From Nitrosospira sp. (GTDB lineage: Bacteria; Pseudomonadota; Gammaproteobacteria; Burkholderiales; Nitrosomonadaceae), in the NCBI GenBank assembly GCA_026399575.1, contig JAPLQS010000037.1, positions 1 through 32,467 of the forward strand: a DNA stretch of 32,467 nt. The letters run 5' to 3'. The translations under genes and the position numbers were made by a program. The notes beneath the pieces were generated by a model. That model searched no databases and was not told the DNA's origin. It was given only the letters and a program-made list of their open reading frames with translations. Shown one piece after another: positions 2 to 19,450 of this stretch. The first letter of the stretch is position 1; every line of letters starts with the position of its first letter.

Positions 2-268
2 GCGTTCCAACAAATATTCATTGCTGCGCCCAAACGGTTCCAACTCCCTCCCAGCGATACTCATTACTGGTTCAGGGCGAAACGACTGATTGCTGTGTCG
101 ATATGCTCATTACTGATCGGTACGGGTTTTTACACGACCCCCTGGGTGCATGTGATAGACCAGAACGTATTAGCTTCCATGGATGATTTGAATTCCTCAC
201 ATCACGGTATACAACAATCTAACACGGTGACTGTGCCTGTCGGGGCCAAAGGCGAACATGATGAGTGA
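2..268 (+). CDS. NuoM-like proton-translocating membrane subunit, C-terminal fragment (5' end outside window)
   Basis: An open frame enters from the left edge and stops at TGA 266-268, giving 88 residues. It contains one clear hydrophobic segment (around RLIAVSICSLLIGTGFY) followed by TPWVHVIDQNVLASM and a hydrophilic tail. This resembles the last membrane helix and tail of complex I subunit M (NuoM/ND4) proteins, where a final helix is followed by a P..W/vi..sv pattern. The next gene starts 11 bp inside this one, which suggests translational coupling. With that full NuoM-like gene, the locus encodes at least two antiporter-like subunits in tandem. The N-terminal part, and so the exact family (NuoM, NuoL or DabB type), cannot be seen. 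The coding frame is secure; the family call is moderate. Confidence 0.65.
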   Translation, partial: AFQQIFIAAPKRFQLPPSDTHYWFRAKRLIAVSICSLLIGTGFYTTPWVHVIDQNVLASMDDLNSSHHGIQQSNTVTVPVGAKGEHDE

Positions 269-1766
269 AGCCGGTTTCCCGCTGCTGAGTCTTGCCATTC
301 TGCTGCCGCTACTGGGTGCCATTGCCACCGGAATCACCCGCGACATAAAACTGGCTAAAGTGATCGCGCTGGCAATTGCCGGCTGTGAACTGCTGCTGAC
401 GTTGTTCATAGTGCAGTCATTCAATGCCGGTAGCGGCGATTTCCAGTTGGTCGAAAAGTACCCCTGGATACCGTTCCTGAATATCGACTATCTGGTCGGT
501 GTTGATGGCATATCAGTATTGTTCCTGCCAATGTCAGCGTTGTTGACGCTGACGACGATCATTGCTTCGTGGAATTCGATACAGCATAACCCCCGCTTCC
601 ATTTTGCATTATTGCTGGTACTGGAAGGGATCACCATCGGGGTGTTCACCTCATTGGATACGGTGTTGTTTTTTTTGTTCTGGGAACTGACGCTGCCGCC
701 ATTCTTCTTTTTAATCGGCTTATGGGGTATCGGTTCGCAGCGGCGTGGTGCGGCGATGAAATACACACTATTTATGCTGTTCGGCGGGGTACCGTTATTG
801 CTTGCTTTCATCATACTGGCGATTAATCATGCCAGTGTGGCGGGTGGAGTCATTCCCCATGCCCTGTCCTTCAGCTTGCCGGTCCTGCTGGAAACACCCT
901 TGTCAGATAATTTGCAGATACTGGTTTTCTTGTTGCTACTGCTGGGCTTCGGTGTCAAAGCACCTCTGGTTCCCTTTCATACCTGGTTGCCGACTGCCGC
1001 AATGGAAGGTCCAGTACACGTAACGGCGATACTGACTGGTCTGAAACTGGGAGCTTACGGTATCTTGCGTTTTGCCATGCCGTTAGCCCCGGCTGCGGCA
1101 GTCGAATACAGTTGGATATTGGGCATTCTGGGCACGATTACGCTTATATATGGTGCGCTGATTGCTTTGCAACAGACTAATCTGCGCCGTCTGCTGGCTT
1201 ATGCCAGTATCAGTCACGTTGGCCTGGTGGTGGTCGGTATCGCGTCCCTGAATATACAGGGTCTGCAGGGTGCGGTTTTTCAATTGCTCAACTTCTCTTT
1301 GGTTGCCAGTTCACTGATACTGATTGTCGGCATGATTCAACACCGGTTGGGCAGTACCGAGATTATCCATTTGGGTGGTTTGGCCAAAGTGATGCCACGG
1401 CTGACCTGTTTCTACTTCCTGTTTACCTTGGCGAGTATCGGAGTACCGGGAACCAACGGGTTTCCCGCTGAGCTGATGTTGATTATCGGCGCATTGAAAG
1501 CTCACTCCAGTCTGGGAGTTGCCGCGCTGGTCGGCGCAGTCCTCGGTGCTGCATACATGCTGTCCTATATCCGCCGTGCCTTCTTTGGTCCGATCACGCA
1601 ATCCGTTGTCAGTCAGGCGCAGGATTTATACCCGCGTGAACTGGCTCTGTTATGTGTTCCTGCCTTGCTGGTTCTGGTGTTTGGGTTCTTCCCGGACAGT
1701 GTGCTGCATATCAATCAAATGGCGTCGGAAGTATGGTTGTCGCGGATACTTAATCCAGCTCCTTAG
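258..1766 (+). CDS. NuoM-family (complex I subunit 4-like) proton-translocating antiporter subunit
   Basis: A 502-residue, almost wholly hydrophobic protein of normal NuoM length with about 14 predicted membrane helices. The residues known to form the NuoM proton channel are present: Glu143 in FWELTLPPFFFLIGLWG, Lys234 in GVKAPLVPFHTWLP, Lys263 in TGLKLGAYGILRF, His320 in ASISHVG and Glu405 in GFPAELMLI. The last is Glu as in NuoM; NuoL-type subunits have Lys at the equivalent place. No other nuo genes lie nearby. The neighbours are a second NuoM-like gene and a carbonic anhydrase, so a role in inorganic-carbon uptake is more likely than respiratory complex I; this is inference. It overlaps the upstream gene by 11 bp. 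ATG codons at 258 and 261 are both possible starts, with AAAGGCG just upstream as a weak ribosome site. Confidence 0.9.
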   Translation: MMSEAGFPLLSLAILLPLLGAIATGITRDIKLAKVIALAIAGCELLLTLFIVQSFNAGSGDFQLVEKYPWIPFLNIDYLVGVDGISVLFLPMSALLTLTTIIASWNSIQHNPRFHFALLLVLEGITIGVFTSLDTVLFFLFWELTLPPFFFLIGLWGIGSQRRGAAMKYTLFMLFGGVPLLLAFIILAINHASVAGGVIPHALSFSLPVLLETPLSDNLQILVFLLLLLGFGVKAPLVPFHTWLPTAAMEGPVHVTAILTGLKLGAYGILRFAMPLAPAAAVEYSWILGILGTITLIYGALIALQQTNLRRLLAYASISHVGLVVVGIASLNIQGLQGAVFQLLNFSLVASSLILIVGMIQHRLGSTEIIHLGGLAKVMPRLTCFYFLFTLASIGVPGTNGFPAELMLIIGALKAHSSLGVAALVGAVLGAAYMLSYIRRAFFGPITQSVVSQAQDLYPRELALLCVPALLVLVFGFFPDSVLHINQMASEVWLSRILNPAP

Positions 1767-1826
1767 GGCGTAACCGGCAGAAGCATTTTTGCCCCACAGC
1801 TCTTTTCTTTTGGGTTCTCCATTCGT

Positions 1827-1832
1827 TATAAT
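1827..1832 (+). promoter_or_regulatory. Possible -10 box (TATAAT) upstream of the carbonic anhydrase gene
   Basis: A perfect TATAAT lies 26 bases before the ATG at 1859 in the 92-bp gap after the NuoM-like gene. The hexamer 17 bases upstream (TTTCTT, 1804-1809) is a poor -35 box. A GGAG ribosome site at 1847-1850 precedes the start codon by 8 bases. The carbonic anhydrase could therefore have its own promoter as well as being read from the NuoM-like operon. Confidence 0.35.
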
Positions 1833-1858
1833 ATTGCACCTAACATGGAGATGACCGT

Positions 1859-2929
1859 ATGAATACCGGAACTGATTACCTGCTTGATTTGAATACACGC
1901 CACTCGCGGGCTTTTATTGATTTGGCCATGGAGCGGCGCAGATATCGGGGCGAACATCCCACTGAAATAGCGGCGCTTAAATGCATGGATGGCAGGCTTA
2001 ACCTGCCGGTCATGACACGAACTGCAGTCGGGATCATTCAACCTTTTCGCAATCTGGGTGGCAAGTTTGATCTGGGCTGGCCCTTCTTTCAGGCAACTTT
2101 GGATCACTGGGCGCAGTACTCCATCGGCCGCGGCAGGCACTGCCTGATCTTCGTGACCTATCATTTTGCGCGCGGAGACATTCACCGTGGCTGCAGGGGA
2201 TTCAATTACGATACCAATGCTGCCAGAGACACGGCCATAAAACTCAAGAACCAGTTTGAGCGTATTTATGGCAAGGGTGCCGTGGTACCGATAGTGTGCG
2301 GGATCGAGACTGACCTTGAGGCCTTGATCCTGCACGGCGAAGACGGTCGCGTTATCGATCTGGCCGAAGTAAAGGAAGACTTATCCGGGCTCGAATTGGA
2401 AGGTATGTTGCATTCGCTGTACCCCTCAATGCCGGAACGGATTTTCAAGGATATGATCCCGCTGGTTGAAGGAAATATCCGGCACGTCCGAATGATCCGC
2501 GCTTCCAACAGGCCGATCGAAGATGCCGAACACAAGGAATGGGTTTTGGGAGTGGGGCGCGGCTTTGACTGGCTGCATGCCATTAATACGGCTTTCATCG
2601 TCGGGCCTTTCGATCCGAATCTTTCTGATGCGATTGGAACTGCGGCTGTATTGCTGAAAGGCAATATCGACGATGGCCGGGTCACCCCAAGCGGTATTGT
2701 ACTCATGACTTCGGCCGCTTACAGAGAAATTGGCCCCGAATGTGAGTTGGCGAAGGAGAAAGCAAGATTCCTGAGCAAATTTGCGCTCGACGTCATCAAG
2801 GCCAAGGTTCCGGATCTGGTGCCTCACCTAAATATACTTACCGGATACACTGATTTGAACACCAGAAAGTTTGAAGTGCTGGAGCGTTTGGACAAGGTTT
2901 CCAATCCGGTCGCTTACAAAGCGGCTTAG
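1859..2929 (+). CDS. CsoSCA-like carbonic anhydrase, lacking the N-terminal domain
   Basis: A 356-residue soluble protein with the beta-type carbonic anhydrase signature C-x-D-x-R at Cys42, Asp44, Arg46 (ALKCMDGRL). This is the same spacing as the zinc Cys and the Asp-Arg dyad of the carboxysomal enzyme CsoSCA. The other zinc ligands are probably in YHFARGDIHRGC: Cys112 with either His109 (H-x2-C, the classical beta pattern) or His102 (x9; CsoSCA has a similar long gap). No signal peptide or membrane segment is seen. Known CsoSCA proteins are about 500 residues, with an N-terminal region that attaches to RuBisCO. Here the catalytic motif starts at residue 42, so that region is absent. No carboxysome gene is visible. 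The gene follows two NuoM-like genes and ends at a strong terminator. Likely role: CO2/bicarbonate interconversion linked to the membrane subunits. Confidence 0.8.
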   Translation: MNTGTDYLLDLNTRHSRAFIDLAMERRRYRGEHPTEIAALKCMDGRLNLPVMTRTAVGIIQPFRNLGGKFDLGWPFFQATLDHWAQYSIGRGRHCLIFVTYHFARGDIHRGCRGFNYDTNAARDTAIKLKNQFERIYGKGAVVPIVCGIETDLEALILHGEDGRVIDLAEVKEDLSGLELEGMLHSLYPSMPERIFKDMIPLVEGNIRHVRMIRASNRPIEDAEHKEWVLGVGRGFDWLHAINTAFIVGPFDPNLSDAIGTAAVLLKGNIDDGRVTPSGIVLMTSAAYREIGPECELAKEKARFLSKFALDVIKAKVPDLVPHLNILTGYTDLNTRKFEVLERLDKVSNPVAYKAA

Positions 2930-2944
2930 CAGGGTAGAAGCTAC

Positions 2945-2993
2945 AAGCGGAGCTGCCAGTTCGAGATAGAGCTGGCAGCTCCGCTTTTTTTTT
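2945..2993 (+). terminator. Rho-independent terminator after the carbonic anhydrase gene
   Basis: A perfect 15-bp inverted repeat (arms 2945-2959 and 2972-2986, GC-rich, 12-base loop) runs directly into nine T residues (2985-2993). It lies 16 bases after the stop codon and separates the NuoM/carbonic anhydrase operon from the PII-like gene. Confidence 0.95.
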
Positions 2994-3094
2994 GCCGTTC
3001 ACACCAGATTCGCGCCGCGATGCAGCGCGAACTGAATTTCTGTCTGCCGTGAACAAGTTATCTCAGCAAAAACAGATGGTTGAAGATTGTCCGC

Positions 3095-3123
3095 TTGACG
3101 GCAGAGGTTACGTCATCTATGAA
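3095..3123 (+). promoter_or_regulatory. Sigma-70-type promoter for the PII-like gene
   Basis: TTGACG (3095-3100) and TATGAA (3118-3123) are separated by exactly 17 bases, matching the consensus at 5 of 6 and 4 of 6 positions. It lies between the terminator and the ATG at 3168, so the PII-like gene probably has its own transcript. The rest of the 238-bp gap (2930-3167) shows no open frame. Confidence 0.55.
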
Positions 3124-3167
3124 ATTAACAGGAAGCATTCAATTCAGAATTACGTTTTGGAGATGCC

Positions 3168-3485
3168 ATGAATAATACGATAACAATGAAACGGTTTGAG
3201 ATCGTCGTCGATGAGGAAAAGCTCAACGAGCTGATCGCATTGCTGGAATCAACCGGTGTGCGCGGCTATACTTTCATCAAGCATACGGGCGGTCTCGGTT
3301 CGCGCGGTGAACGGCGTCCTGATGGCCTCTTTTTTCAGGAAAAGAATGCCATGGTGATTCTCGCCTGCCAGGAAGAGCAGGCACAGAAAGTAGTCACGGT
3401 GCTACGCCCCAGGTTGAAGGAATTTGGTGGCATGTGCCTGATTTCAGACTGCCTCTGGGTGGAAGGGCCGACAGTTTCATACTGA
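3168..3485 (+). CDS. PII-like signalling protein, CPII (carbon-regulated) type
   Basis: A 105-residue protein with the alternating beta-alpha-beta pattern of the PII fold: strand KRFEIVVDE, helix EKLNELIALLES, strand RGYTFIKHTGG, strand NAMVILACQ, helix QAQKVVTVLRPRL, strand GMCLISDCLWVEG. The loop equivalent to the T-loop (about residues 42-59, GLGSRGERRPDGLFF) is short and lacks the tyrosine uridylylated in GlnB/GlnK. There is no C-terminal CGPxGC redox motif of the SbtB type. CPII proteins, described from carboxysome-linked loci of autotrophic proteobacteria, bind adenine nucleotide and bicarbonate; position beside a carbonic anhydrase and NuoM-like genes supports that class. GGAG (3159-3162) precedes ATG 3168; ATG 3186 is an alternative start. 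Nitrogen-type GlnB is unlikely from length and loop. Confidence 0.8.
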   Translation: MNNTITMKRFEIVVDEEKLNELIALLESTGVRGYTFIKHTGGLGSRGERRPDGLFFQEKNAMVILACQEEQAQKVVTVLRPRLKEFGGMCLISDCLWVEGPTVSY

Positions 3486-3496
3486 AACGCCAGTAC

Positions 3497-4447
3497 TTAC
3501 TTACGTGGCGCAGCACCCAGTGATGCGGCCAGCTTCCGGTAGAAACCAAGCCGCCGTACGTTGATTCTTCCTTCTTCTGCCGCTTGTGCCAGCGCGCAAC
3601 CGGGTTCGCCGGTGTGCCGGCAATTGCTGAATCTGCATTGCCCGAGGTAGGGGTGAAATTCAACAAATCCCCAAGCCAGATCCGCTTCGTCAATATGATG
3701 CAGACCGAACTCCTGCATGCCGGGGGAATCGATCAGGCGGCTACTCTGATCGAGGTGGTAGAGCCGCGCGTGGGTGGTGGTGTGACGTCCGGTATCGAGT
3801 GCGACGGAAATCTCTGCAGTGGCGCGTTGTGCAGCTGGGATGAGCGCATTGATGAGGGTGGATTTGCCCATGCCCGATTGTCCTACCAGCACACTGAGCT
3901 GGCCTTGCAGATACGGCAACAGCGGTGTGACATCCGCCTTGGCGCTGAGCTGCAGCAGCGGATAACCCAGTTCCCGGTAGAGCAGGAGAGTGGCGGCAGC
4001 AGTGCGCGTGGGCTCAGCGAGATCAGCCTTGTTGAGCACGATCAACGCTTTGATCCGCTGGCTTTCGGCGGCGGCGAGACAACGGTTCACCAGTTCTTCA
4101 CTGAAGCTGGGAACGGCGGCTACCACGATGACGATCTGGGTGACGTTGGCAGCGATCAGTTTTTCGCGGAAAGCGTCGCTGCGGTAAAGTAGCGTGGTAC
4201 GCGGCAGGATGTTTTCGATCACACCTTGTCCGGGCGTGGTGGGCTGAATCAGCACCTGGTCACCGCAGGCCGCACCCCCCTTCTTGCCACGCATCACGCA
4301 GGATAGAGTTACCGCGCTTGCGGTTTCAACCAGATACTGCCGGCCGAATGCGGCGACGATCTGTCCTGCAACAGGTGCCGGTGAAACAGATGGGGAATTG
4401 CGGGCCGTGCTCAAATCTTGAACAGGGCATCGACCTTCGCCGCGCAA
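3497..4447 (-). CDS. rsgA: Small ribosomal subunit biogenesis GTPase RsgA
   Basis: A circularly permuted GTPase that releases assembly factors and checks late 30S subunit maturation. The motifs appear in permuted order: G4 NKAD (139-142), then G1 GQSGMGKST (189-197), G2-like RHTTTH (221-226) and G3 DSPG (240-243). An N-terminal OB-fold region precedes them. A C-terminal zinc-binding knuckle has Cys271, Cys276, His278 and Cys284. Length is normal (up to 316 residues). The frame opens with TTG at 4447 and overlaps the end of the pterin dehydratase gene by 37 bp. No ATG or good ribosome site fits the N-terminus, so the start is uncertain by about 25 codons; homology would begin near residue 27 (VAGQIVAAFGRQYLVE). 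It is the last gene of a three-gene minus-strand group and ends 11 bp from the convergent PII-like gene. Confidence 0.95.
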   Translation of the reverse strand: MRGEGRCPVQDLSTARNSPSVSPAPVAGQIVAAFGRQYLVETASAVTLSCVMRGKKGGAACGDQVLIQPTTPGQGVIENILPRTTLLYRSDAFREKLIAANVTQIVIVVAAVPSFSEELVNRCLAAAESQRIKALIVLNKADLAEPTRTAAATLLLYRELGYPLLQLSAKADVTPLLPYLQGQLSVLVGQSGMGKSTLINALIPAAQRATAEISVALDTGRHTTTHARLYHLDQSSRLIDSPGMQEFGLHHIDEADLAWGFVEFHPYLGQCRFSNCRHTGEPGCALAQAAEEGRINVRRLGFYRKLAASLGAAPRK

Positions 4448-4752
4448 ATGAAATCATTCTCGGACAGTCCATTGACGGCGTGAGTGGTGTATTCCACGCG
4501 GCACTGATTGTAGCCGACCGTGATGTCCGGATGATGATCCTCGCGGTGCGAAACCCATGCGACTGCGTTGACGAACGCCATGGTCTGGTAATAATTCTTG
4601 AAATCGTAGGTTTTGCCGATCCGCTGGTCGAAAAGCTGCCAGCCCTCAAGCTGCGGCAGCAGCGTGGCAATTTCGCCGGGCGTGAGCGGCGGCATGCCGC
4701 CTTCGCAGGGCTTGCATTGTTTGGTTGCGAGATCGCAGACGGAAGCATTCAT
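4411..4752 (-). CDS. phhB: Pterin-4a-carbinolamine dehydratase
   Basis: A 113-residue protein with the family's hallmark EDHHPDI (71-77) and a later His91. These give the three active-site histidines (73, 74, 91) that dehydrate 4a-hydroxytetrahydrobiopterin in pterin cofactor recycling. Length is typical. No phenylalanine hydroxylase is seen here. In bacteria without that enzyme the protein is thought to serve molybdopterin or other pterin functions, so the exact role is open. A good ribosome site (AAGGAGAG) precedes the ATG by about 5 bases. The gene lies 51 bp after the M48 protease and overlaps rsgA, which points to one operon. The cysteine-rich N-terminus (Cys6, Cys13, Cys16) is not part of the catalytic domain. 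Confidence 0.93.
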   Translation of the reverse strand: MNASVCDLATKQCKPCEGGMPPLTPGEIATLLPQLEGWQLFDQRIGKTYDFKNYYQTMAFVNAVAWVSHREDHHPDITVGYNQCRVEYTTHAVNGLSENDFICAAKVDALFKI

Positions 4753-4803
4753 TGTTTCTCTCCTTCTTTGGGTAAGGTGGAGGAACGGGTCAAGATTTCT
4801 GCG

Positions 4804-6093
4804 TCAATTATGCGCCAGGTTCTGCAGCCGCGCTATCCTCAACGCAGCAGGCGGATGAGAGTCATAAAATGCCGAATGCAGCGGGTCGGGAGTGAGCGTT
4901 GCAGCATTGTCCTGGTAGAGCTTTACCAGCGCCCGGATGAGATCGTTGGCAGAGGCTTGATGTGCGGCGTATTCGTCAGCTTCAAATTCGTGTTTGCGCG
5001 AATACAGGCTGGACAGAGGCTGCAACAGGAAGGTAAACACGGGCATTGCCAGGAAAAACAGCAACAGTGCCATTGCGGTTGATGGTACGGCCACAACGGT
5101 TACGCCCAGTCCCCGATAGAACCAGTCCTGCTGCATCAGGTAGCCCAGTCCCCACAGGAACACCAGGCTCATGGCGAAAGTCAAGACGATGCGTTTGATG
5201 ACGTGGCGGCGCTTGAAATGTCCCAGTTCATGCGCCAGCACTGCTTCGATTTCGGGTGCGTCGAGACGCGCAAGTAAAGTGTCGAAGAAAACGATACGCT
5301 TGGTTTTGCCGAAGCCGGTGAAATAAGCGTTGCCGTGACTGCTGCGGCGCGAGCCATCCATCACGAATAACCCGCTGGATTCGAAGCCGCATTTTTGCAG
5401 CAGTTGTTCGATACGTGTCTTGAGTGCAGCATCTGCCAGCGGCGTGAATTTGTTGAATAGCGGTGCAATCCAGGTGGGGTAAATAGCCAGAACCAGCAGG
5501 TTGAATACCATCCAGGCGAACCAGACGTAGAGCCACCAGTGCGCACCCATCTCCGCCATCAACCAAAGTACCCCGAACAGCAGCGGTACGCCGATCAGCA
5601 TACCCAGCGCAGTCTGCTTGATGAGATCGGTAAAGAACATGGCGGGCGTCATTTTATTGAAGCCGAATTGTTGTTCGATGACAAACGTGCGATAGTAGGT
5701 CATGGGGATTTCTACTACACTCATCAGCAGCATGGTGCTGACGATCAGCGCTATACCGTGGGTTATTGGGTAATTTTCTGAACTGCCATCGAGCGGCATC
5801 GGGACACCCAGCAAGTCTGACCAGAAAGCGGCCAGGGCATTCAACCCGCCGCCGAGGGTAAGCGCCAGCAGCAATGCCGCTTCCAGAAATATGTTGAGAT
5901 AACCGAGACGGGTTTTGGCGCAAGTATAGTCGGCTGCTTTCTGGTGCGCCGCCAGATCGATCTGTGCGGAAAAGTTGTCGGGCACGCTGGCGCGATGGGC
6001 GCGGATATGGCGGATGTGCCGCGTTGCGAGCCACATGCGCACACAGGTGGTGAGCAGCAGGGCGGCAACGAAGACGGCAGTGAAGATTTGCAT
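4804..6093 (-). CDS. M48-family membrane zinc metallopeptidase (Ste24/HtpX-like)
   Basis: A 429-residue integral membrane protease of the Ste24 (CAAX prenyl protease 1) type. It has several hydrophobic helices and the zinc site HELGH (His288, Glu289, His292 counting from Met at 6093). The third-ligand region is KHEFEADEYA about 80 residues later, as in the family. Bacterial members have been linked to membrane protein quality control; the substrate here is unknown. The open frame extends 22 codons further to a TTG at 6159, but the ATG at 6093 begins a normal inner-membrane N-terminus (MQIFTAVFVAALLL) and matches the usual length, although no strong ribosome site precedes it. It heads a minus-strand group with phhB and rsgA and is divergent from orn across 100 bp. 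Confidence 0.93.
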   Translation of the reverse strand: MQIFTAVFVAALLLTTCVRMWLATRHIRHIRAHRASVPDNFSAQIDLAAHQKAADYTCAKTRLGYLNIFLEAALLLALTLGGGLNALAAFWSDLLGVPMPLDGSSENYPITHGIALIVSTMLLMSVVEIPMTYYRTFVIEQQFGFNKMTPAMFFTDLIKQTALGMLIGVPLLFGVLWLMAEMGAHWWLYVWFAWMVFNLLVLAIYPTWIAPLFNKFTPLADAALKTRIEQLLQKCGFESSGLFVMDGSRRSSHGNAYFTGFGKTKRIVFFDTLLARLDAPEIEAVLAHELGHFKRRHVIKRIVLTFAMSLVFLWGLGYLMQQDWFYRGLGVTVVAVPSTAMALLLFFLAMPVFTFLLQPLSSLYSRKHEFEADEYAAHQASANDLIRALVKLYQDNAATLTPDPLHSAFYDSHPPAALRIARLQNLAHN

Positions 6094-6193
6094 GGATAAT
6101 TGAGACCAGAGGTTGGCAAATGGCAGTGAGCGTGACGGACTGCTAGCGGTATGACACAATTACATCCTGAAAATTCAGGGGAAGGGTCGGATT

Positions 6194-6739
6194 ATGGCAC
6201 AAGATAACGGTAATCTTATCTGGATTGACTTGGAAATGAGCGGTCTCAATACGGATACCGATCGTATTACCGAAGTGGCTCTGGTCGTGACCGACTCACA
6301 GTTGAACGTGGTGGCGGAAGCGCCGGTGCTGGTGGTGCATCAATCAGACACGGTGCTGGACGGGATGGACAACTGGAATAAATCCACTCATGGCAAATCC
6401 GGTCTGATTGACAAGATCAGGGCGTCAACGCTGACGGAAGCCGAAGTGGAGGCACGCATGCTTGCGTTCCTGCAGCAGCATGTTCCAGCCGGGATTTCTC
6501 CCATGTGCGGCAATTCCATCTGTCAGGATCGCCGCTTTCTGGCGCGCTCGATGCCGCAACTGGAGGCATATTTTCATTACCGCAATCTGGATGTGAGCAC
6601 CCTGAAGGAACTGGTCAAGCGCTGGAAGCCCGAGATTGCCGCAGGCTTGACCAAACAAAGCAAGCACGAAGCGCTGGCGGATATTTATGATTCCATTATT
6701 GAAATGAAGTATTACCGCGAGCATTTCCTCAGAGCGTAG
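6194..6739 (+). CDS. orn: Oligoribonuclease (3'-5' exoribonuclease for 2-5 nt RNAs)
   Basis: A 181-residue DEDDh exonuclease that degrades very short RNAs, including pGpG from cyclic-di-GMP turnover. All catalytic residues are present at the same numbers as in E. coli Orn: Asp12 and Glu14 (WIDLEMSGL), Asp112 (CQDRRFL), His158 and Asp163 (KHEALADI). Length is normal. A purine-rich stretch (AGGGGAAGGG) precedes the ATG. Just upstream, at 6166-6179, CCTGAA and TTCAGG flank two A residues, a small inverted repeat that may lie in the leader. The gene is single, divergent from the M48 protease operon, and 73 bp before glgP. Confidence 0.97.
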
Positions 6740-6812
6740 CAGAGTGATGCGCAATTTACTTTTCTGCTTGCAATAACACCTATCGTCTAGTCTCTGTCAA
6801 GGAGAGTCACAC

Positions 6813-9368
6813 ATGTCCTCCGGCACTGTATTCAATCTTGCAGTCAATCCCAAAATCCCCCGCCGGCTGGTGCGCCTGGAGGAGTTGGCCAACAATCTCT
6901 GGTACAGTTGGGATCGCTCCACACGCTCGCTGTTCTCCCGTTTGCATCCCGGCTTATGGGGGGCAGTGGGGCACAACCCCAAGGCTTTCCTTAAGCGCGT
7001 GGACGAATCCCTGCTATTGGAAGCCGCAGAGGATCAGGTATTTCTTGCCAATTACAACAGCATACTATCGTCCTACGATTCTTATCATTCCGAACCGTTA
7101 CGACATAACGGTACCGAAAGCCTGCGTCCGCATGACCAGGTGGCGTACTTCTGTTTCGAGTTCGGTTTTCACGAGAGCTTTCCGATTTATTCCGGCGGCC
7201 TTGGCATCCTGGCTGGTGACCACTGCAAGGCGGCGAGCGACCTGCGCTTGCCGTTTGTCGGTGTTGGTCTGCTCTACCGTCAGGGCTATTTCTTCCAGAC
7301 CATCGACAACCAGGGCAACCAGCAAGTCACCTACACCGATTCGGATTTTGAAGACTTGCCGGTGGTGCCGGTGCTGCATGCAGATGGCTCGGAGGTGCGG
7401 GTCGAAGTGGAATTGCCGCAGCGCAAGGTGGTGATAAAAGTATGGCAAGCGCAGGTGGGTCATGTGACGCTCTATCTGCTGGATACCGATTTGCCGGAGA
7501 ATTCCTCGCAGGATCGCGACATCACCCACCAACTCTATGGCGGCGACAAGGCCATGCGTATCGAGCAGGAAATCATACTTGGTGTCGGCGGCGTGCGCGC
7601 ATTGCAGGCGGTGGGCATGCGGCCCACGGTGTGGCACATCAACGAAGGTCATGCGGCATTCATGATGCTGGAACGCATGCGCACTCTGGTGCAGCAAGGT
7701 CTGGATTTCGCCAGTGCACTGGAAGCGGTGGCAGTGAACACGGTGTTCACCACCCATACTGCAGTACCAGCGGGGCACGACCATTTCAGCGCCGACATGA
7801 TGCAGACATATTTCGAGGGATTCTACCGTGACCTTAGTCTGGCCCGCGAGGAGTTCATGGCGCTGGGCCGCGTTCCGGGCACTCCGGATTTCAACATGAC
7901 CGCGCTTGCCATCCGCAGCTCGCGCTCGCATAACGGCGTGAGCCGGATCCACGGCCATGTGTCGTCGCACATTTGCCAGGATCTGTGGCCACAGATCGAG
8001 CCGGAAGAGAATCCGATGGGATATATCACCAACGGCGTGCATGTGCCGACGTTCCTGGCGCAGGAATGGTCCGACCTGTTCGATCGCCATCTCGGTCACG
8101 AGTGGCGCAACAAAATGTGCGACATCGAGTACTGGTCGCGCATCGAGACCATACCTGACCACCAGTTCTGGAGCGTACGGCAGTCACTGAAATCGCAAAT
8201 GCTTTACGGTGTGCGCTCCCATCTCGCCGCACAAAATACCCATAACCATGGTTCTGAGGCGCATCTGGACCGCTTGCTCAAGCTTACCGACCCAATTAAT
8301 CCGAATATCCTGACCATCGGTTTTGCCCGCCGTTTCGCCACTTATAAACGTGCCACGCTGCTGTTCGAGAATCTCGACTGGCTGCGCAAAATCATCCTTG
8401 ATCAGGAGTGCCCGGTGCTGTTTATTTTTGCCGGCAAGGCGCACCCGGCGGATATCCCTGGGCAGGATTTGATCCGGCGCATCAGTCAGGTTGCACGCAT
8501 GCCGGAATTTGAAGGGAAGCTGCTGCTGATCGCGGGCTATGATCTGCGGCTTGCCAGGCGGCTGGTGGCAGGGGTGGATGTGTGGCTCAACAACCCGGTG
8601 TACCCGCTGGAGGCAAGCGGCACTTCCGGAATGAAAGCGGGCATCAACGGAACAATTAACCTGAGCGTGCTCGATGGCTGGTGGGGAGAAGGCTACAACG
8701 GCAAGAATGGCTGGGCTATCAAACCGGGACCGGAGGATATGCCGCCCACGCTGCGCGACAAGGAAGAGAGCCAGACCCTCTATGAAATTCTGCAGGATCG
8801 GGTGGTGCCGCTCTATTATCATCGTGACAAGCTTGGTTACTCGCCCGAGTGGGTGAAAATGGCCAAGCACTCGATGATGTCGTTGCTGCCGCGCTTTAAT
8901 GCCACGCGCATGCTGGGCGAATATCTGAACAACTTCTATCTGCCGGCCAGCAACCAGGGCGCACTCTATACCGAGAACGATTTCGACGGTGCCAGGAAGA
9001 TCGCGGCCTGGAAAGCACATGTGAGAAATGCCTGGGGCGGAGTGACGCTGCGTCGGCTGGATACCCCATGCAAGTGCATCAGTTTTGGTGATGTCGTACA
9101 TTTCAGCATCGCCGCAAGACTGAACGGCCTGCAGCCCGAGGATGTGGTGGTGGAACTGCTGGTTTGCCGCCAGTTCAAAGGCAGCAAGCCATGCGATTTC
9201 AAGCACTTCAGGTTCGAAGCTAGCGGTGTCGAGGAATCGGGTGAATATCTGTTTGAACTGAATCTCGCTCCGGAACTATGCGGCAGACTGGAATATTACA
9301 TCCGTATTTATCCGTATCAGCCGCTGCTGACACATCCGCTGGAAATGGGCCTGATGGTATGGCTGTGA
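6813..9368 (+). CDS. glgP: Alpha-glucan (glycogen) phosphorylase
   Basis: An 851-residue enzyme that releases glucose 1-phosphate from glycogen. The N-terminus (LVRLEELANNLWYSWDRST) matches the DUF3417 domain found on the long alpha-glucan phosphorylases of bacteria and archaea. The pyridoxal-phosphate lysine is Lys608 in EASGTSGMKAGINGT, and GGLGILAGDHCKAASDL near residue 130 is the phosphorylase glucan-site motif. This is the non-MalP/GlgP-E. coli subfamily, judged by the DUF3417 domain and the GTSGMKAG form of the motif. A strong ribosome site (AAGGAGAG) precedes the ATG. The gene converges on glgA with only a short heptad repeat between them, and is the degradative partner of the synthesis operon next to it. 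Confidence 0.95.
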   Translation: MSSGTVFNLAVNPKIPRRLVRLEELANNLWYSWDRSTRSLFSRLHPGLWGAVGHNPKAFLKRVDESLLLEAAEDQVFLANYNSILSSYDSYHSEPLRHNGTESLRPHDQVAYFCFEFGFHESFPIYSGGLGILAGDHCKAASDLRLPFVGVGLLYRQGYFFQTIDNQGNQQVTYTDSDFEDLPVVPVLHADGSEVRVEVELPQRKVVIKVWQAQVGHVTLYLLDTDLPENSSQDRDITHQLYGGDKAMRIEQEIILGVGGVRALQAVGMRPTVWHINEGHAAFMMLERMRTLVQQGLDFASALEAVAVNTVFTTHTAVPAGHDHFSADMMQTYFEGFYRDLSLAREEFMALGRVPGTPDFNMTALAIRSSRSHNGVSRIHGHVSSHICQDLWPQIEPEENPMGYITNGVHVPTFLAQEWSDLFDRHLGHEWRNKMCDIEYWSRIETIPDHQFWSVRQSLKSQMLYGVRSHLAAQNTHNHGSEAHLDRLLKLTDPINPNILTIGFARRFATYKRATLLFENLDWLRKIILDQECPVLFIFAGKAHPADIPGQDLIRRISQVARMPEFEGKLLLIAGYDLRLARRLVAGVDVWLNNPVYPLEASGTSGMKAGINGTINLSVLDGWWGEGYNGKNGWAIKPGPEDMPPTLRDKEESQTLYEILQDRVVPLYYHRDKLGYSPEWVKMAKHSMMSLLPRFNATRMLGEYLNNFYLPASNQGALYTENDFDGARKIAAWKAHVRNAWGGVTLRRLDTPCKCISFGDVVHFSIAARLNGLQPEDVVVELLVCRQFKGSKPCDFKHFRFEASGVEESGEYLFELNLAPELCGRLEYYIRIYPYQPLLTHPLEMGLMVWL

Positions 9369-9372
9369 TGAT

Positions 9373-9436
9373 GGGGAGTGGGGAGTAGTTAAGTGGTAAG
9401 TAGTGAGTGGTGAGTGGTGAGTGGAAAGTGGTAAGT
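9373..9436. repeat. Degenerate heptad tandem repeat (consensus GGTGAGT) between glgP and glgA
   Basis: Nine consecutive units fill almost the whole 74-bp gap between the two convergent stop codons: two of GGGGAGT, one 8-mer AGTTAAGT, then GGTAAGT, AGTGAGT, GGTGAGT, GGTGAGT, GGAAAGT and GGTAAGT. The plus strand is almost free of C across the array. No hairpin terminator is visible in this gap. Confidence 0.85.
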
Positions 9437-9442
9437 GGGGCG

Positions 9443-10984
9443 TTACGTTTTGCGCTTCCGTTTAGGTGCAATCGGGGTGGCACGGACTGGTTTTGCTGAC
9501 CCGGATACCAGCGACAGGTAGATTCCACGGTAGGCTGCAGCGCTTGGGAGCCAACTGAAATCTTTGGTCATGCAGTTTTTCTGCAAGCGGCGCCAGATCG
9601 GTTTGTCCTGGTAGGTGATGCTGACACGACGGATGGCGGCGAGGAAATTGCCGGAGGTCATGGGGTGAAACAAAAAACCGCTGGCACTTCCGTCTGCCAG
9701 TGTTGCCGGGGTGCAATCCACTACCGTGTCGAGCAGGCCACCGGTGGCATGCACCAGTGGTGGCGTGCCATAGCGCTGGCTGTACATCTGGTTCAAACCG
9801 CAGGGCTCGAAGCGCGACGGCATCAGGAAGCTGTCGGCGCCGGCCTCGATCAAGTGTGATAGCGCCTCATCAAAACCGATGCGCACCGCAATTTTCCCGG
9901 GGTGAGTCTTTGCCAGCAACGCCAACTGCTGTTCCAGCGCCGCTTCGCCATTACCAAGAATGACCAGTTGTGCAGGAAGCCTGATCAGTTGCAGCGCGAC
10001 CTGCAGCAGCAGATCGTAGCCTTTCTGGTGAGTGAAACGGCTCACTGCCCCAAACAACAAAATATCCGGATCGAGCGTGAGTCCCAGCGCCTGCTGCAAT
10101 GCACGTTTGTTGGCGGCCTTGGCGGCAAGCCTGCGGACAGTGTAATTGCGCGCAAGACAGGGGTCGGTGGCGGGGTCCCATTCGACCGTGTCGATGCCAT
10201 TGATGATGCCGCTGAGATGTTTGCGGCGTCCTGCCAGCAAGCCTTGCAAGCCGAAACCCAGTGGTGCCGTCTGGATTTCTCTGGCATAGGTGGGGCTGAC
10301 GCTGACGATGTGGTCGGCATAATAGAGTCCGGCCTTGAGAAACGACATTTTGCCGTGGTATTCAACACCGTTGATGTCGAAGCTGGCGGCAGGCAGTCCC
10401 AGTTGGGTTACGCTGCCAGGCGGGAATACCCCCTGGAAAGCGAGATTGTGCACCGCCATCAGAGATGCCGCTTTTGTTCCCCGATGAAAATGCAGATATG
10501 CCGGCGTGAGGCCGCTTTGCCAGTCATTGCAGTGCACCACCTGCGGGCGCCAGGCGAGCGGACTGGCATCGCAAGCCAGAATAGCGCCGACTTTTGCGAG
10601 CAGGCCGAAACGCAGCGCGTTATCCGGCCAGTCGTGGCCGGCTGCATCCAGGTATGGACCGCCCTCACGCCGATAGAGTCCGGGGCAGTCGATGATGAAT
10701 ACGGGAACATCGGTGGACGTAGTTACCGGCAGTCTGGCGGATAGCAGCACGGCTGGAGGAAACTGTGCCAGATCATTCAATTCTGCCACTTTGCGTTTGT
10801 GTTTGAGTCCCGCCAGCACTTGCGGGTAGCCGGGAATCAGCAGGCGCACATCCACCCCCAGTTGCCGTAGCGCCGCCGGCAGTGCTGCGCTGACGTCGCC
10901 CAGACCGCCGGTTTTACTCAGGGGATGGACTTCAGATGTGATGAACAGGACACTAAGTTCGGAGCGTGATGGGCTGGGTGGCAT
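9443..10984 (-). CDS. glgA: Glycogen synthase (ADP-glucose type, GT5)
   Basis: A 513-residue GT-B glycosyltransferase that transfers glucose from ADP-glucose to the growing alpha-1,4-glucan. The N-terminal KTGGLGDV loop (Lys24 onward, after SVLFITSEVHPLS) binds ADP-glucose. The C-terminal domain has the GT5 pattern RFEPCGLNQMYSQRYGTPP followed by TGGLLDTV. Length is slightly above the common 475-490 residues because of a basic C-terminal tail (PKRKRKT). ATG at 10984 is followed by a short Ser/Pro-rich leader. It is the last gene of the minus-strand operon glgB - thiolase - pgi - glgA, 30 bp after pgi, and ends beside the heptad repeat. Confidence 0.96.
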   Translation of the reverse strand: MPPSPSRSELSVLFITSEVHPLSKTGGLGDVSAALPAALRQLGVDVRLLIPGYPQVLAGLKHKRKVAELNDLAQFPPAVLLSARLPVTTSTDVPVFIIDCPGLYRREGGPYLDAAGHDWPDNALRFGLLAKVGAILACDASPLAWRPQVVHCNDWQSGLTPAYLHFHRGTKAASLMAVHNLAFQGVFPPGSVTQLGLPAASFDINGVEYHGKMSFLKAGLYYADHIVSVSPTYAREIQTAPLGFGLQGLLAGRRKHLSGIINGIDTVEWDPATDPCLARNYTVRRLAAKAANKRALQQALGLTLDPDILLFGAVSRFTHQKGYDLLLQVALQLIRLPAQLVILGNGEAALEQQLALLAKTHPGKIAVRIGFDEALSHLIEAGADSFLMPSRFEPCGLNQMYSQRYGTPPLVHATGGLLDTVVDCTPATLADGSASGFLFHPMTSGNFLAAIRRVSITYQDKPIWRRLQKNCMTKDFSWLPSAAAYRGIYLSLVSGSAKPVRATPIAPKRKRKT

Positions 10985-11014
10985 GGAGTGGATTAGTTGT
11001 CTGCCGCTCTGTTA

Positions 11015-12649
11015 CTAACGGTTTGCCTTGAAATAATTCATTAGTCCGTTGCTGGATGCGTCATGGGTGGCTGTCGGACCATCCTGCTCCAGTTCAGCCA
11101 GAATTGTCCCGGCCAGTTGTTTGCCCAGCTCCACGCCCCATTGATCGAATGGGTTTATGTTCCAGACTACGCTTTGTACAAATACCTTGTGTTCGTACAG
11201 GGCGAGCAGCGACCCCAGAGTTTGGGGATCCAGTTGCCTGAACAGGATGGAAGTGGTGGCATGGTTGCCGGGAAACACCTTGTGCGGCAGCAGTTGCTCC
11301 AGCGCTTCTCCTGTCATCCCCTGGGCTGCCAGTTCGGCACGGACTTTGTTAGCATTCTTGCCGCACATCAGCGCTTCGGTCTGGGCAAAGAAATTTGCCA
11401 GCAACAGGCGGTGATGATTGCCGATGGGGTTGTGACTTTGGCAGGGTGCCAGGAAATCGGCCGAGATGGTTTGTGTGCCCTGGTGCAGCAGTTGGTAGAA
11501 AGCATGTTGCCCGTTGGTTCCCGGTTCACCCCACACCACTACGCCGGTGCTGTAGTCCACCGCGTTACCGTCACGGTCTATGCGCTTGCCGTTGCTCTCC
11601 ATTTCCAGTTGTTGCAGATAAGCCGGGAAGCGCTGCAGATACTGATCGTAAGGTAGTACCGCATGGGTTGTGGCACCGCAGAAATTGATCTGCCAGATGC
11701 CGATGAGAGCAAGCATGACCGGCAGATTCTGTTCCAGCGGCGTGCTGCTGAAATGCCGATCCATTTCCTTTGCCCCGGCGAGCAGTGCATGAAAATTCTC
11801 CATGCCGATCGCAAGTGCAATCGGCAGGCCGATGGCCGACCACAGCGAATAGCGTCCGCCCACCCAATCCCAGAACTCGAACATATTGCCGGAGTCGATG
11901 CCAAATTTCTCCACCTCCACACGGTTGGTGGAGACCGCAACAAAATGGGTGGCGATATCCTGTTCCCTGTCGCCATGGGTAAGAAACCACTCCCGCGCGG
12001 CGCGGGCATTGGCCATGGTTTCCTGGGTGGTGAAAGTTTTCGAGGCGATGATGAACAGCGTGGTTTCCGGGTTCAACTGCCGCAGCGTTTCGACAAGCTG
12101 GGTGCCGTCGATGTTGGAAACGAAGTGTGTTGCGAGATGGGGCGAGCCATAAGGCCGGAGCGCTGCGACCACCATTGCCGGTCCCAGATCGGAACCGCCG
12201 ATGCCGATATTGACTACATCGGTGAAGCGCTTGCCGGTGTAGCCTTTCAGCTCGCCACTGCGCACCGCGTGCGAGTATTGCTCCATCTGTGCCAGCACCC
12301 GTTTGACCGCAGGCATGACATCGATCCCGTCCACCCGCGCTGGGTTGTCGCCGCGCAGCGCAACATGCAGGGCGGCACGGCCCTCGGTATTATTTATTTT
12401 CTCGCCACGGAACATCCGTGCGATCCAATCCTCCAGCCCTTGCTGGCGGGCGAGTGCCAGCAGCAAGGCGATGGTCTCCGCGCTGACGGGCTGCTTGGAA
12501 TAATCCAGCAGCATGTCATTGAATCGCAGCGAGAATTTGTCGAAGCGCTGTTTATCCTGTACAAACAACTCGCGCAAATGCTGCCCTGCGATGACTGGCT
12601 GGTGGGCCTGCAATGCAAGCCAGGCAGGGGACAGGGTGAGAGTGGACAT
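11015..12649 (-). CDS. pgi: Glucose-6-phosphate isomerase
   Basis: A 544-residue enzyme interconverting glucose 6-phosphate and fructose 6-phosphate, which connects the glycogen genes to glycolysis/gluconeogenesis. Family signatures are present: [15 protein letters not shown] in the sugar-phosphate site, [16 protein letters not shown] (Pgi signature 1) and the C-terminal [10 protein letters not shown]. The open frame continues 81 codons upstream into the thiolase gene; the ATG at 12649 ([13 protein letters not shown]) gives the normal Pgi N-terminus and has AGGAA about 9 bases before it. It lies 32 bp after the thiolase and 30 bp before glgA, so it is probably co-transcribed with the glycogen genes. 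Confidence 0.97.
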
Positions 12650-12681
12650 GTTGTCTTGTTCCTGATCGTGGGAAACTCGGG

Positions 12682-13866
12682 TTATAGGCGCTCGAATACC
12701 GCTGCGATGCCCTGACCACCGCCGATGCACATGGTTACCAGCGCATAGCGTCCGCCGCTGCGGTGCAGTTCGTAAATGGCTTTGACCGTGAGGATGCAAC
12801 CGGTCGCCCCGATGGGGTGTCCCAGCGCCACCGCGCCGCCGTTGGGGTTGGTTTTTGCCGGATCGAAATGCAGTTCCCGTGCTACGGCACATGCCTGAGC
12901 AGCAAAAGCTTCGTTGGACTCAATCACGTCCATGTCGGCCACCGTGAGACCGGCGCGCTTCATGGCAGTTTGCACTGCCGGCACCGGGCCAATGCCCATG
13001 TATTTCGGATCGACCCCAGCGTGGGCATAGGACACCAGTCGCGCCATCGGTTTGAGGCCGCGCTGCTCGGCGACACTGCGCTCCATCAGCACTACCGCCG
13101 CCGCGCTGTCGTTGATGCCGGAAGCGTTGCCAGCCGTGACCGTACCATCTTTCTGGAACACCGGGCGGAGTCCGGCCAGACCCTCGATACTCACATCCGC
13201 GCGCGGATGTTCGTCAGTAGCAAAGGTCGTCGTACCTTTACGGGTTTTCAATTCCATGGGCAGGATCTGTTCCCGGAAATAACCATTCGTGATGGCATGG
13301 ATGGCGCGGCGGTGGCTTTCCAGCGCGAAGCTATCCTGCTCTGCACGGCTGATGCCCCACTTGGCGGCAATGTTTTCCGCGGTAATTCCCATGTGCACGT
13401 TGTCGAACGGGTCGGTCAGTGCCCCTGCCATCATGTCCACGGTGCTGCCGTCATTCATGCGCTGTCCCCAGCGCAGTGCTGGCAGCAGATAGCCGCCGCG
13501 ACTCATCGATTCCGCACCACCGGCGACGGCTGCATCGGTGTCACCCAGCAGGATGGTCTGCGCGGCGGAGATGATGGCCTGCAGGCCGCTGCCGCACAAG
13601 CGATTCAAGGTCAGTGCCGCGGTGCTCTGCGGCAGGCCGCCGTTGATGCAAGCCACGCGTGCGAGATACATGTCACGGGCTTCGCCGTGGATTACATTGC
13701 CAAATACCAGATGGCCGGCTTCATTGGGATCAATCCCGGCACGCGCCACTGCTGCGCGCACCACGGTTGCCGCCAGTTCTGTAGCAGCAACATCTCTGAG
13801 CGCGCCGCCGTAATCGCCGATGGCGGTGCGGACACCGCTCAATATCACTACTTCGCGCGCATTCAT
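12682..13866 (-). CDS. Acetyl-CoA C-acetyltransferase (biosynthetic-type thiolase)
   Basis: A 394-residue thiolase. The nucleophile Cys91 is in [11 protein letters not shown], His350 in GHPIGATG and the acid/base Cys380 in CIGGGQG, all standard for the family, as is the length. It condenses two acetyl-CoA to acetoacetyl-CoA, or the reverse; the sequence alone does not separate a PhaA (polyhydroxybutyrate) role from a degradative one. The ATG at 13866 has AGGAAA 6 bases upstream. Its position is odd: it sits between glgB (64 bp upstream) and pgi (32 bp downstream) in an otherwise glycogen-related operon. No phaB or phaC is in the window. Confidence 0.93.
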
Positions 13867-13930
13867 GACATTTTCCTTGTTTGCCGGAAATATTTTACTT
13901 TGCGCACACTCGGTGGCTGCGTTTTGCAGA

Positions 13931-16207: not shown

Positions 16208-16232
16208 GTGACTGTTGATTCGGAGCAAATTT

Positions 16233-16291
16233 AAGGAGTCACTGAACAGATTCTCCGTCGTGCCTGCGTATAACTCGTTCAGTGACTTCTT
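16233..16291. repeat. Long inverted repeat in the glgB/glgC divergent region
   Basis: Arms 16233-16247 and 16277-16291 pair at 14 of 15 positions (core GTCACTGAAC / GTTCAGTGAC) around a 29-base spacer. It lies between the two divergent genes and overlaps the doubtful 5' extension of the glgB frame. It may be a regulator site, a hairpin in the leader, or the remnant of a small mobile repeat; a related sequence occurs at 23366-23386. Confidence 0.7.
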
Positions 16292-16349
16292 ATTGCGAGA
16301 AAGTGCCATAATGCAGAAAGATGCGGCAACATAATCAGGGGAGCAATAT

Positions 16350-17648: not shown

Positions 17649-17739
17649 CCGGATGGCCGGGGATCAAAGGCGGAATGTGGCTGGCCCCCCGTGCCAGTTG
17701 AAGTCGTCCTGCTGAATTTTCATAGAGTTTCCAGCGCAA

Positions 17740-19446: not shown

Positions 19447-19450
19447 TCTG

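Follow-up and report, generated by a model that had tools for sequence, protein, structure and literature searches.

A probable DAB-type inorganic-carbon pump operon with a CsoSCA2 carbonic anhydrase gene in Nitrosospira and its relatives

The stretch of DNA considered here (the window) comprises bases 1-32467 of contig JAPLQS010000037.1 (C73) from an assembly (2.09 Mb, 93 contigs) of a Nitrosospira sp. in the ammonia-oxidising family Nitrosomonadaceae, and the genes at its beginning, which lie at the contig edge, are only the downstream end of an operon split by a contig break. In its complete form, the operon contains the genes for DabA, for four antiporter-like membrane subunits related to NuoL and NuoM, and for a carbonic anhydrase of the CsoSCA2 type. 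The explanation that we favour, and consider probable, is that it encodes a carboxysome-free pump of the DAB type, which would convert CO2 to bicarbonate, with a co-expressed soluble CsoSCA2 feeding CO2 back to RuBisCO; the cluster may be a natural carbon-concentrating system that works without carboxysomes. The gene order, the homologies, the intact active sites, their conservation and the recurrent linkage of CsoSCA2 were established directly from the genomes compared below.

The missing part of the operon is found on a contig of 18,466 bases of the same genome (C63), the final 133 bases of which are an exact copy of the first 133 of the window, with the reading frame continuous across the join. 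The joined order begins with SbtA (C63 8837-9790; PF05982, 368.9 bits), an adjoining gene for a CPII-like protein (PIIa, C63 9840-10157), a NuoM-like subunit (M1, C63 10652-12124), DabA with 1092 amino acids (aa) (C63 12134-15412; PF10070, 836.6 bits with a cut-off of 25) and, adjoining DabA, a NuoL-like subunit of the DabB type (L, C63 15417-16985). It continues with a second NuoM-like subunit (N3, 535 aa when joined, C63 16994 to window 268), of which the window holds the last 88 codons (2-268, + strand), and with a third (M2, 502 aa, window 258-1766, + strand; TIGR01972, 465.7 bits with a cut-off of 263.8, and PF00361, E 7e-63), whose start overlaps the N3 stop. The CsoSCA2-type carbonic anhydrase (356 aa, window 1859-2929, + strand), a hairpin and a second CPII-like PII protein (PIIb, 105 aa, window 3168-3485, + strand; PF00543, E 5e-13) follow. 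A preliminary description of the window, made from its letters alone, had proposed an inorganic-carbon pump akin to DabAB, consisting of a tandem pair of NuoM-like genes, a CsoSCA-related anhydrase with the C-x-D-x-R signature and a CPII-like PII protein, and had suggested looking upstream for dabA or a NuoL-like gene. Profile matches agree with it on M2, the anhydrase and PIIb, and both DabA and the NuoL-like DabB are present on C63; the first gene of the pair cannot be judged from the window, since its part 2-268 alone has no Pfam or NCBIfam match at E up to 1, and proves NuoM-like once joined. That no other nuo genes are visible holds within the window but not beyond it, because C63 has NuoM-like and NuoL-like genes and another contig, C93, separate L, M and N genes. 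The idea that a CsoSCA relative replaces DabA as the hydration subunit had to be abandoned for this genome, in which DabA, with its active-site residues complete, is encoded three genes upstream of M2.

Relatives have the same order on single contigs (G numbers designate genomes, L numbers loci or records). In G001 and G004 one contig covers everything between SbtA and PIIb, and in G003 it reaches as far as the anhydrase; contigs with M1 through to the anhydrase are found in G009, G025, G038, G040, G050 and G058 and, among others, in the named records of N. marina Nm71 (L018) and N. aestuarii Nm36 (L027). For the anhydrase, four comparisons, two of them with saturated dS, give a ratio of non-synonymous to synonymous substitution (dN/dS) of about 0.04-0.06, which indicates strong purifying selection; this low ratio and the recurrence of the order in many genomes argue that the gene arrangement is not due to chance. 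A search of the genome with PF00361 found eight places, four on C63 and C73, in the pump operon, and four on C93, whose position and length identify them as the L, M and N genes of a standard complex I, N being split into two frames. This NuoN gene (C93 41821-42704, L145) is read as two frames of 282 and 276 aa, owing to a frameshift or an assembly error.

The only solved structure matched by the DabA of the operon is DabA2 (9RD0 chain A, E 1e-72). The residues C564, D566, R568, H755 and C770, identical in all 26 aligned long DabA sequences, are equivalent to Cys351, Asp353, Arg355, His524 and Cys539, which are the zinc ligands and the Asp-Arg dyad of DabA2 (PMC13144422). The adjoining L subunit aligns with NuoL-type chains in its first 360 residues and with DabB2 (9RD0_B, E 7e-34) in residues 43-383, and NuoL/NdhF chains outscore DabB2 as its matches. 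In all 26 L sequences the Glu of transmembrane helix 5 (TM5) and the Lys of TM7 are present; a His stands at the TM8 place, and TM12 has no conserved residue. The lack of a conserved TM12 residue fits the account according to which a finger of DabA supplies the corresponding half-channel (PMC13144422), though the finger residue Glu444 is only partly kept, as Asp.

The three NuoM-like subunits would extend this pump in different ways. In M1 the set of four NuoM channel residues is complete in 23 of 23 aligned sequences, and M2 has the Glu of TM5 and the Lys of both TM7 and TM8 in 24 of 24 (own copy included) and the TM12 Glu in 23, the remaining sequence being gapped. Having all four residues, M1 and M2 could carry extra protons per turnover. 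N3, whose gene is whole in G001 (L098 13347-14936), where the protein has NuoM/NdhD chains as its best solved matches, has Arg in place of the TM7 Lys in 24 of 26 aligned sequences and another residue in place of the TM12 Glu in 24, the other two being gapped at those sites; its aligned TM5 column has no Glu, and the window's own copy has one two residues further on. The loss of the TM12 Glu and the Lys to Arg replacement make N3 likelier to be a structural or coupling link, and from these residues we infer two complete extra channels (M1 and M2) and a degenerate one (N3).

The anhydrase scores 22.5 bits (E 4e-5) on the profile of the carboxysome shell carbonic anhydrase (TIGR02701), far below the cut-off of 241, and is thus a distant relative of CsoSCA. 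It has no Pfam match at E up to 1, and a relative with 44% identity in G033 passes PF20686 (CsoSCA_cat) with 30 bits and a cut-off of 21.5. Its matches among solved sequences are carboxysomal CsoSCA alone (five sequences, E 4e-4 to 0.01). At the level of the fold, an AlphaFold model built with 19 sequences (predicted local distance difference test, pLDDT, 79; predicted template modelling score, pTM, 0.74), poorly modelled at residues 107-116 around the zinc ligand Cys112, gave the carboxysomal CsoSCA structures 8THM, 9G4T and 2FGY as top Foldseek matches (E 5e-14 to 3e-12). The residues C42, D44 and R46 (the C-x-D-x-R motif), H102, C112, H225 and E227 are invariant in 49 of 49 CsoSCA2 rows and aligned with three of four carboxysomal rows, being the equivalents of C173, D175, R177, H242, C253, H397 and E399, the seven active-site residues listed for CsoSCA (PMC9164163). 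The catalytic Cys at position 42 is found at 173-234 in three carboxysomal rows, so that the N-terminus is of about 40 residues and the carboxysomal N-terminal domain is missing. CsoSCA2 sequences are separate from carboxysomal CsoSCA in a tree with no more than three good carboxysomal rows, L152, the remaining one, being a wrongly extracted frame. The anhydrase is therefore of the CsoSCA2 type, with all seven active-site residues kept, and is predicted to be active. The family was named in 2022 in a work which calls csoSCA2 widespread and yet to be studied, lists heterotrophs among its carriers and names Nitrosomonas oligotropha as one, and considers that CsoSCA may be derived from CsoSCA2 (PMC9164163). 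The nearest kin of the anhydrase is a 99% identical protein in a Nitrosovibrio sp. Nv4 record, followed by others from Nitrosospira, Nitrosomonas, N. marina and N. aestuarii.

The only beta-carbonic anhydrase of the genome found by PF00484 (C69 34726-35172, L144) has an N-terminal KRSFLKLTAASAIGLGFAGTGIATA stretch that by eye resembles a twin-arginine translocation (Tat) signal. Given this start the beta-enzyme is probably periplasmic, which leaves CsoSCA2 as the likely cytosolic anhydrase. A role of CsoSCA2 as the only carbonic anhydrase of the cell was rejected, because of this Tat-like enzyme and because beta-carbonic anhydrases and CsoSCA2 are not mutually exclusive across the 101 genomes described below. 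CsoSCA2 copies read in several frames were observed in G005 (L030), G006 (L053, L055, L058 and L060) and G036 (L031 and L052/L054); the near-identical break points in G005 and G006 suggest that the decay may be shared.

The co-occurrence of the genes was followed in 101 genomes (the own genome and 100 relatives), of which 22 carry CsoSCA2, 40 DabA and 11 CsoS2. DabA surroundings were inspected in all 40 DabA genomes. The operon with a long DabA is found in 21 genomes, including G002, without M1 at a contig edge, and G023, where M1 and part of DabA are the only pump genes, also at a contig edge. CsoSCA2 accompanies it in 19 of the 21, with broken copies in G005 and G036 and none found in G044 and G023. 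In 14 genomes its gene follows M2 directly in the same orientation; it is tail-to-tail with M2 in four (G012, G033, G037 and G045) and on another contig in one (G036). By contrast, CsoSCA2 was found in none of the 19 genomes that have only other DabA types (pieces of 25-42% identity with a DabB-like gene and no M1-N3-M2 set), and in three of the 61 without DabA, namely G006 (51% complete, with a broken copy), G074 and G076. Fisher tests of the association give p values of 1e-9 to 1e-15, in which kinship is ignored. CsoS2 is found in none of the 21 operon genomes and in 11 of the other 80, a difference that is not significant (p 0.11); within the family the corresponding numbers are none of 21 and nine of 40 (p 0.02, uncorrected for kinship).

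Beyond the family, three samples were searched. In a class sample CsoSCA2 is found at E < 1e-80 in six of 369 genomes (own included), while weaker matches (E 1e-13 to 1e-6, frames of 508-576 aa) were counted as carboxysomal CsoSCA, their loci unchecked. The own DabA matches 83 of these 369 genomes, 17 of them, besides the own genome, over most of its length; 16 of the 17 were inspected and G194, split over two contigs, was left out. Ten of the 16 loci have the five genes M1-DabA-L-N-M2 (one with M1 cut by the contig start, another with M2 in pieces), two have M1-DabA-L cut by the contig end, one has M1-DabA, two have DabA-L-N and one DabA alone. CsoSCA2 at E up to 1e-30 occurs in 21 of 399 genomes of an order sample and 11 of 349 of a phylum sample (own and some family members included). 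Among the 31 distinct CsoSCA2 genomes outside the family, its gene adjoins a DAB operon in three (G449, G512 and G691, whose contig breaks off within DabA), adjoins a hydrogenase-4-like operon in five (G074, G662, G567, G182 and G588) or lies at 3-7 kb from one in two (G571 and G666), and adjoins SbtA in one (G469).

The history of this linkage was read on a tree of 50 CsoSCA2 and four carboxysomal rows, from which broken copies (G005, G006, G036 and G567) and near-duplicate or partial named records were omitted; the long-branch L197 and the four carboxysomal rows were also left out of the linkage test, which thus used 49 CsoSCA2 rows. The label "beside DAB operon" needs five changes on this tree, four of them forced by well-supported branches, with a mean of 16 after shuffling, and a single clade of the 23 DAB-linked rows is rejected (p 7e-7, LG+G4). 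The parsimony count does not distinguish gains from losses; since strand and position differ between lineages, repeated gain of the linkage is the simpler account. The CsoSCA2 sequences of the window type form a single clade with a long stem, marked by 22 residue swaps of its own.

Hydrogenase-4-like operons stand beside CsoSCA2 at L106 (G074, 159-15984), L242 (G662), L255 (G567), L193 (G182) and L252 (G588), and contain HyfB-like, HyfF-like, NuoB-like and NuoC/D-like genes, of which G588 shows the last two only before the contig end. SulP precedes the operon in G074, G662 and G567, and LysR and RuBisCO genes lie beyond CsoSCA2 in G074 and G662; CsoSCA homologues beside RuBisCO genes have already been described (PMC9164163). 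In G074 and G182 the NuoD-like subunit lacks the CxxC motif, and a NiFe site is therefore not to be expected. The cluster is a candidate for a second kind of carbon machine. One could go further and regard CsoSCA2 as the general soluble partner of two kinds of complex-I-derived carbon machines, the five-gene DAB pump and an undescribed hydrogenase-4-like pump with CsoSCA2 as its hydration subunit, the latter driven through a redox arm (NuoB/NuoD-like) rather than by proton entry only; it would have lost the NiFe cysteines, and its companions are SulP and CsoSCA2, joined by RuBisCO in two genomes. Such a generalization is unlikely.

According to the mechanism that we favour for the window's operon, DabA, a zinc beta-anhydrase-like protein, would be seated on the NuoL-like DabB (L), and proton entry would drive a one-way hydration of CO2 to bicarbonate, as proposed for DAB2 from structure and mutants (PMC13144422). 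Soluble CsoSCA2, the last product of the operon, would be made in step with the pump and set the exchange between bicarbonate and CO2 in the cytosol, providing CO2 for unencapsulated RuBisCO and bicarbonate for carboxylases, while SbtA would add direct bicarbonate uptake and the CPII proteins would sense the carbon and energy state. The genome carries RuBisCO and, in agreement with the preliminary description, which saw no carboxysome genes, no CsoS2 match was found in it; bicarbonate must then become CO2 in the cytosol, and CsoSCA2 is the candidate for this step. In an engineered precedent, DAB2 and a cytosolic carbonic anhydrase, without carboxysomes, gave Escherichia coli modest RuBisCO-dependent growth in air, to the surprise of the authors, whose model indicates that modest co-expression of the anhydrase saves pumping energy (PMC9894237). 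What we infer comprises all the activities, the transcription as one unit, the complex with four channels, what CsoSCA2 does in it and the regulation by CPII.

Several observations weigh against this explanation. A cytosolic carbonic anhydrase beside a bicarbonate pump risks a futile cycle, and harm of this kind in a cyanobacterium is cited in PMC9894237. At the place of the finger residue Glu444 of DabA2, 16 of 26 sequences (own included) have Asp and ten a non-acidic residue, in a region where the alignment is uncertain. The 19 of 21 genomes are not phylogenetically independent and represent mostly one inherited operon, and CsoSCA2 appears dispensable, being broken in G005 and G036, which keep all five pump genes, and undetected in G044 and G023 although pump genes are there. 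The co-occurrence of anhydrase and NuoM-like pair, a check named in the preliminary description, is strong in Nitrosomonadaceae, but outside the family it is not obligate: CsoSCA2 is present in only one of the ten five-gene operons and one of the 16 long-DabA class genomes (G449, tail-to-tail with M2), G637 has a long DabA and CsoSCA2 some 3.5 Mb apart in contig coordinates, and 20 of the 31 outside CsoSCA2 genomes have no pump, complex-I-like or SbtA neighbour in the inspected stretch, which for some is a short contig. These 20 genomes and the heterotrophic carriers (PMC9164163) suggest that the role of CsoSCA2 is not always tied to CO2 fixation. Finally, the anhydrases looked for in the own genome were beta-carbonic anhydrase (PF00484) and CsoSCA2, the alpha-, gamma- and iota-classes not being searched, and the search for carboxysome genes covered CsoS2 and not the genes of the bacterial microcompartment (BMC) shell.

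The unlinked genomes and the separate genes of G637 are what one would expect if CsoSCA2 were a free housekeeping anhydrase, placed by the pump neutrally or by co-transfer only. However, its order is conserved in the family, its placements beside the DAB operon are scattered on the tree, with four changes forced, and chance adjacency of two single loci would occur in about one in a thousand cases per genome, as we estimate; a purely housekeeping enzyme is accordingly judged unlikely. The opposite proposal, that of the preliminary description, ties CsoSCA2 more closely to the machine, as a bound hydration subunit of N3-M2 or of the whole M1-L-N3-M2 assembly, with two catalytic sites (DabA and CsoSCA2) or two alternative pumps. 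In its favour, CsoSCA2 recurs beside two kinds of antiporter complex, the five-gene DAB type (Nitrosomonadaceae, G449, G512 and G691) and the hydrogenase-4-like type of the five genomes named above, four of which (G074, G182, G662 and G588) have no DabA by a genome-wide search that covered 14 of the 31 outside genomes and not G567; the long stem of the window-type clade with its 22 swaps is as expected on gaining a new partner, and CsoSCA2 has been suggested to join other enzyme complexes (PMC9164163). Nonetheless, DabA is present and intact, most sampled five-gene operons have no CsoSCA2, the DAB-linked genomes of other families carry the gene on the opposite strand, and inspection of the 356-aa model showed neither a transmembrane stretch nor an added domain, no predictor having been run. 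We regard a bound subunit as quite unlikely.

It might also be thought that CsoSCA2 is a catalytically weak sensor or regulator of the pump, binding CO2 or bicarbonate, rather than an enzyme, since there is a CPII gene behind it, in the window as in some relatives, and since it is at times lost while the pump stays. A different CsoSCA is reportedly regulated by ribulose bisphosphate (RuBP). The invariance of the seven catalytic residues in 49 rows points to catalysis instead, and makes a mere sensor very improbable. A fragment of an ordinary respiratory complex I operon, the outcome that the preliminary description had named as fatal to a carbon pump, has in its favour the NuoM and NuoL families of the subunits, but the upstream genes are DabA, SbtA and PII and the complex I L, M and N genes form a separate set on C93, so that this reading is refuted and its probability is negligible. 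A carboxysome remnant was likewise rejected, as no CsoS2 was found in the own genome and CsoSCA2 falls outside carboxysomal CsoSCA.

The favoured pump with its soluble anhydrase resembles several known systems. The DAB/DAC pump of Halothiobacillus (DAB2, 9RD0; PMC13144422) is alike in the Cys2His zinc site and Asp-Arg dyad of DabA (PF10070) and in the adjoining NuoL-like subunit of the DabB type; it differs in that its DabA has 870 aa instead of 1092, in that three additional NuoM-like subunits and CsoSCA2 and SbtA are present in the cluster described here, and in that L keeps the TM5 Glu (26/26) where DabB2 has Ile151. The clade C operons of YbcC/COG3002 (PMC5700660, with COGNAT) also have DabA upstream of NuoL and additional COG1008 subunits, and there a larger number of membrane subunits was proposed to translocate more ions and a PII gene was reported at the 3' end of another clade; the accessible main text of that paper makes no mention of a carbonic anhydrase and does not give the five-gene order. 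The csoSCA2 genes of PMC9164163 share the short N-terminus, the active-site residues and the place outside carboxysome loci, whereas no surrounding DabA operon is described in the accessible part of that source and the gene is here the last of a pump operon. The engineered E. coli (PMC9894237) is comparable in its DAB pump, cytosolic anhydrase, RuBisCO and lack of carboxysomes, but used E. coli Can, whereas CsoSCA2 here is part of a natural operon.

In the cyanobacterial NDH-1MS (NdhD3/NdhF3/CupA), as would be the case here, subunits of the NuoM/NuoL type are coupled to CO2 hydration. Unlike NDH-1MS, which has been described as a vectorial carbonic anhydrase (PMC13144422), the present cluster has no gene of a peripheral arm, no CupA was noticed in it, though no search directed at CupA was made, and L scores 148 bits on the NdhF3 model, whose cut-off is 589. 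Already known are DabA, the extra NuoM in DabA operons (PMC5700660), the CsoSCA2 family and, in general terms, transporters of dissolved inorganic carbon near some atypical loci (PMC9164163). CsoSCA2 in a DAB operon, its repeated linkage and its linkage to hydrogenase-4-like operons were not found in the open-licence PMC literature, among the matches listed and with supplementary files excluded. The repeated placement of CsoSCA2 by DAB pumps and hydrogenase-4-like complexes gives this widespread family a testable role, strain-named Nitrosomonas records carry the operon, and the extra NuoM-like subunits make it possible to ask whether a larger number of proton channels for each hydration steepens the bicarbonate gradient. 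An operon of this kind, in a genome with RuBisCO but no CsoS2 match, is similar to the carboxysome-free stage proposed for the evolution of the carbon-concentrating mechanism (PMC9894237).

As to the expression of the genes, a TATAAT hexamer (window 1827-1832, + strand) was read from the sequence in the 92-base gap ahead of the anhydrase gene. It has no good -35 box, and a promoter scan of positions 1500-3700 gave no site on the + strand; an internal promoter ahead of the anhydrase is possible but unsupported. After the anhydrase gene, an intrinsic terminator-like hairpin of 18 pairs followed by a T run (window 2945-2986, + strand) is by far the longest of four sites found by a terminator scan of the stretch, where shuffling gives a mean of 2.3 (standard deviation 1.5). 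The hairpin is identical in G001, is replaced at the equivalent place in G004 by one of 15 pairs with another sequence, and has a weak counterpart of eight pairs further on in G058; no such hairpin was found in seven relatives (G002, G008, G009, G025, G038, G040 and G050), and G003 has just 43 bases there, so a terminator after CsoSCA2 is clear only in the window, G001 and G004. Lying between the anhydrase gene and PIIb, the hairpin suggests that PIIb is probably outside the transcript.

PIIa and PIIb, which are 89.5% identical as proteins, flank the pump genes, and a PII gene is found on both sides of the pump also in G001 and G004. The only solved matches of PIIb at E up to 0.001 are 5D4N/5DRK and 5D4L, two versions of one P-II protein (E 1e-5), which we take to be a bicarbonate-responsive CPII; by this kinship PIIb is CPII-like, and its binding of bicarbonate and adenine nucleotides is a prediction. 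In the other lineage of Nitrosomonadaceae (L103, L104, L126 and L127), SbtA and a PII gene lie upstream of M1 on the opposite strand. As the SbtA-PII pair is beside the pump in both layouts, it travels with the pump.

Further along the window, a glycogen cluster (6813-21472) encodes a phosphorylase with DUF3417, a starch synthase, a phosphoglucose isomerase, a branching enzyme, a GlgC-like nucleotidyl transferase and two GH57 proteins, with a thiolase gene between them. At 25029-31213 a gene for a PD-(D/E)XK nuclease protein is followed by one for a UvrD helicase with a PD-(D/E)XK domain, a pair that is AddB/AddA-like.

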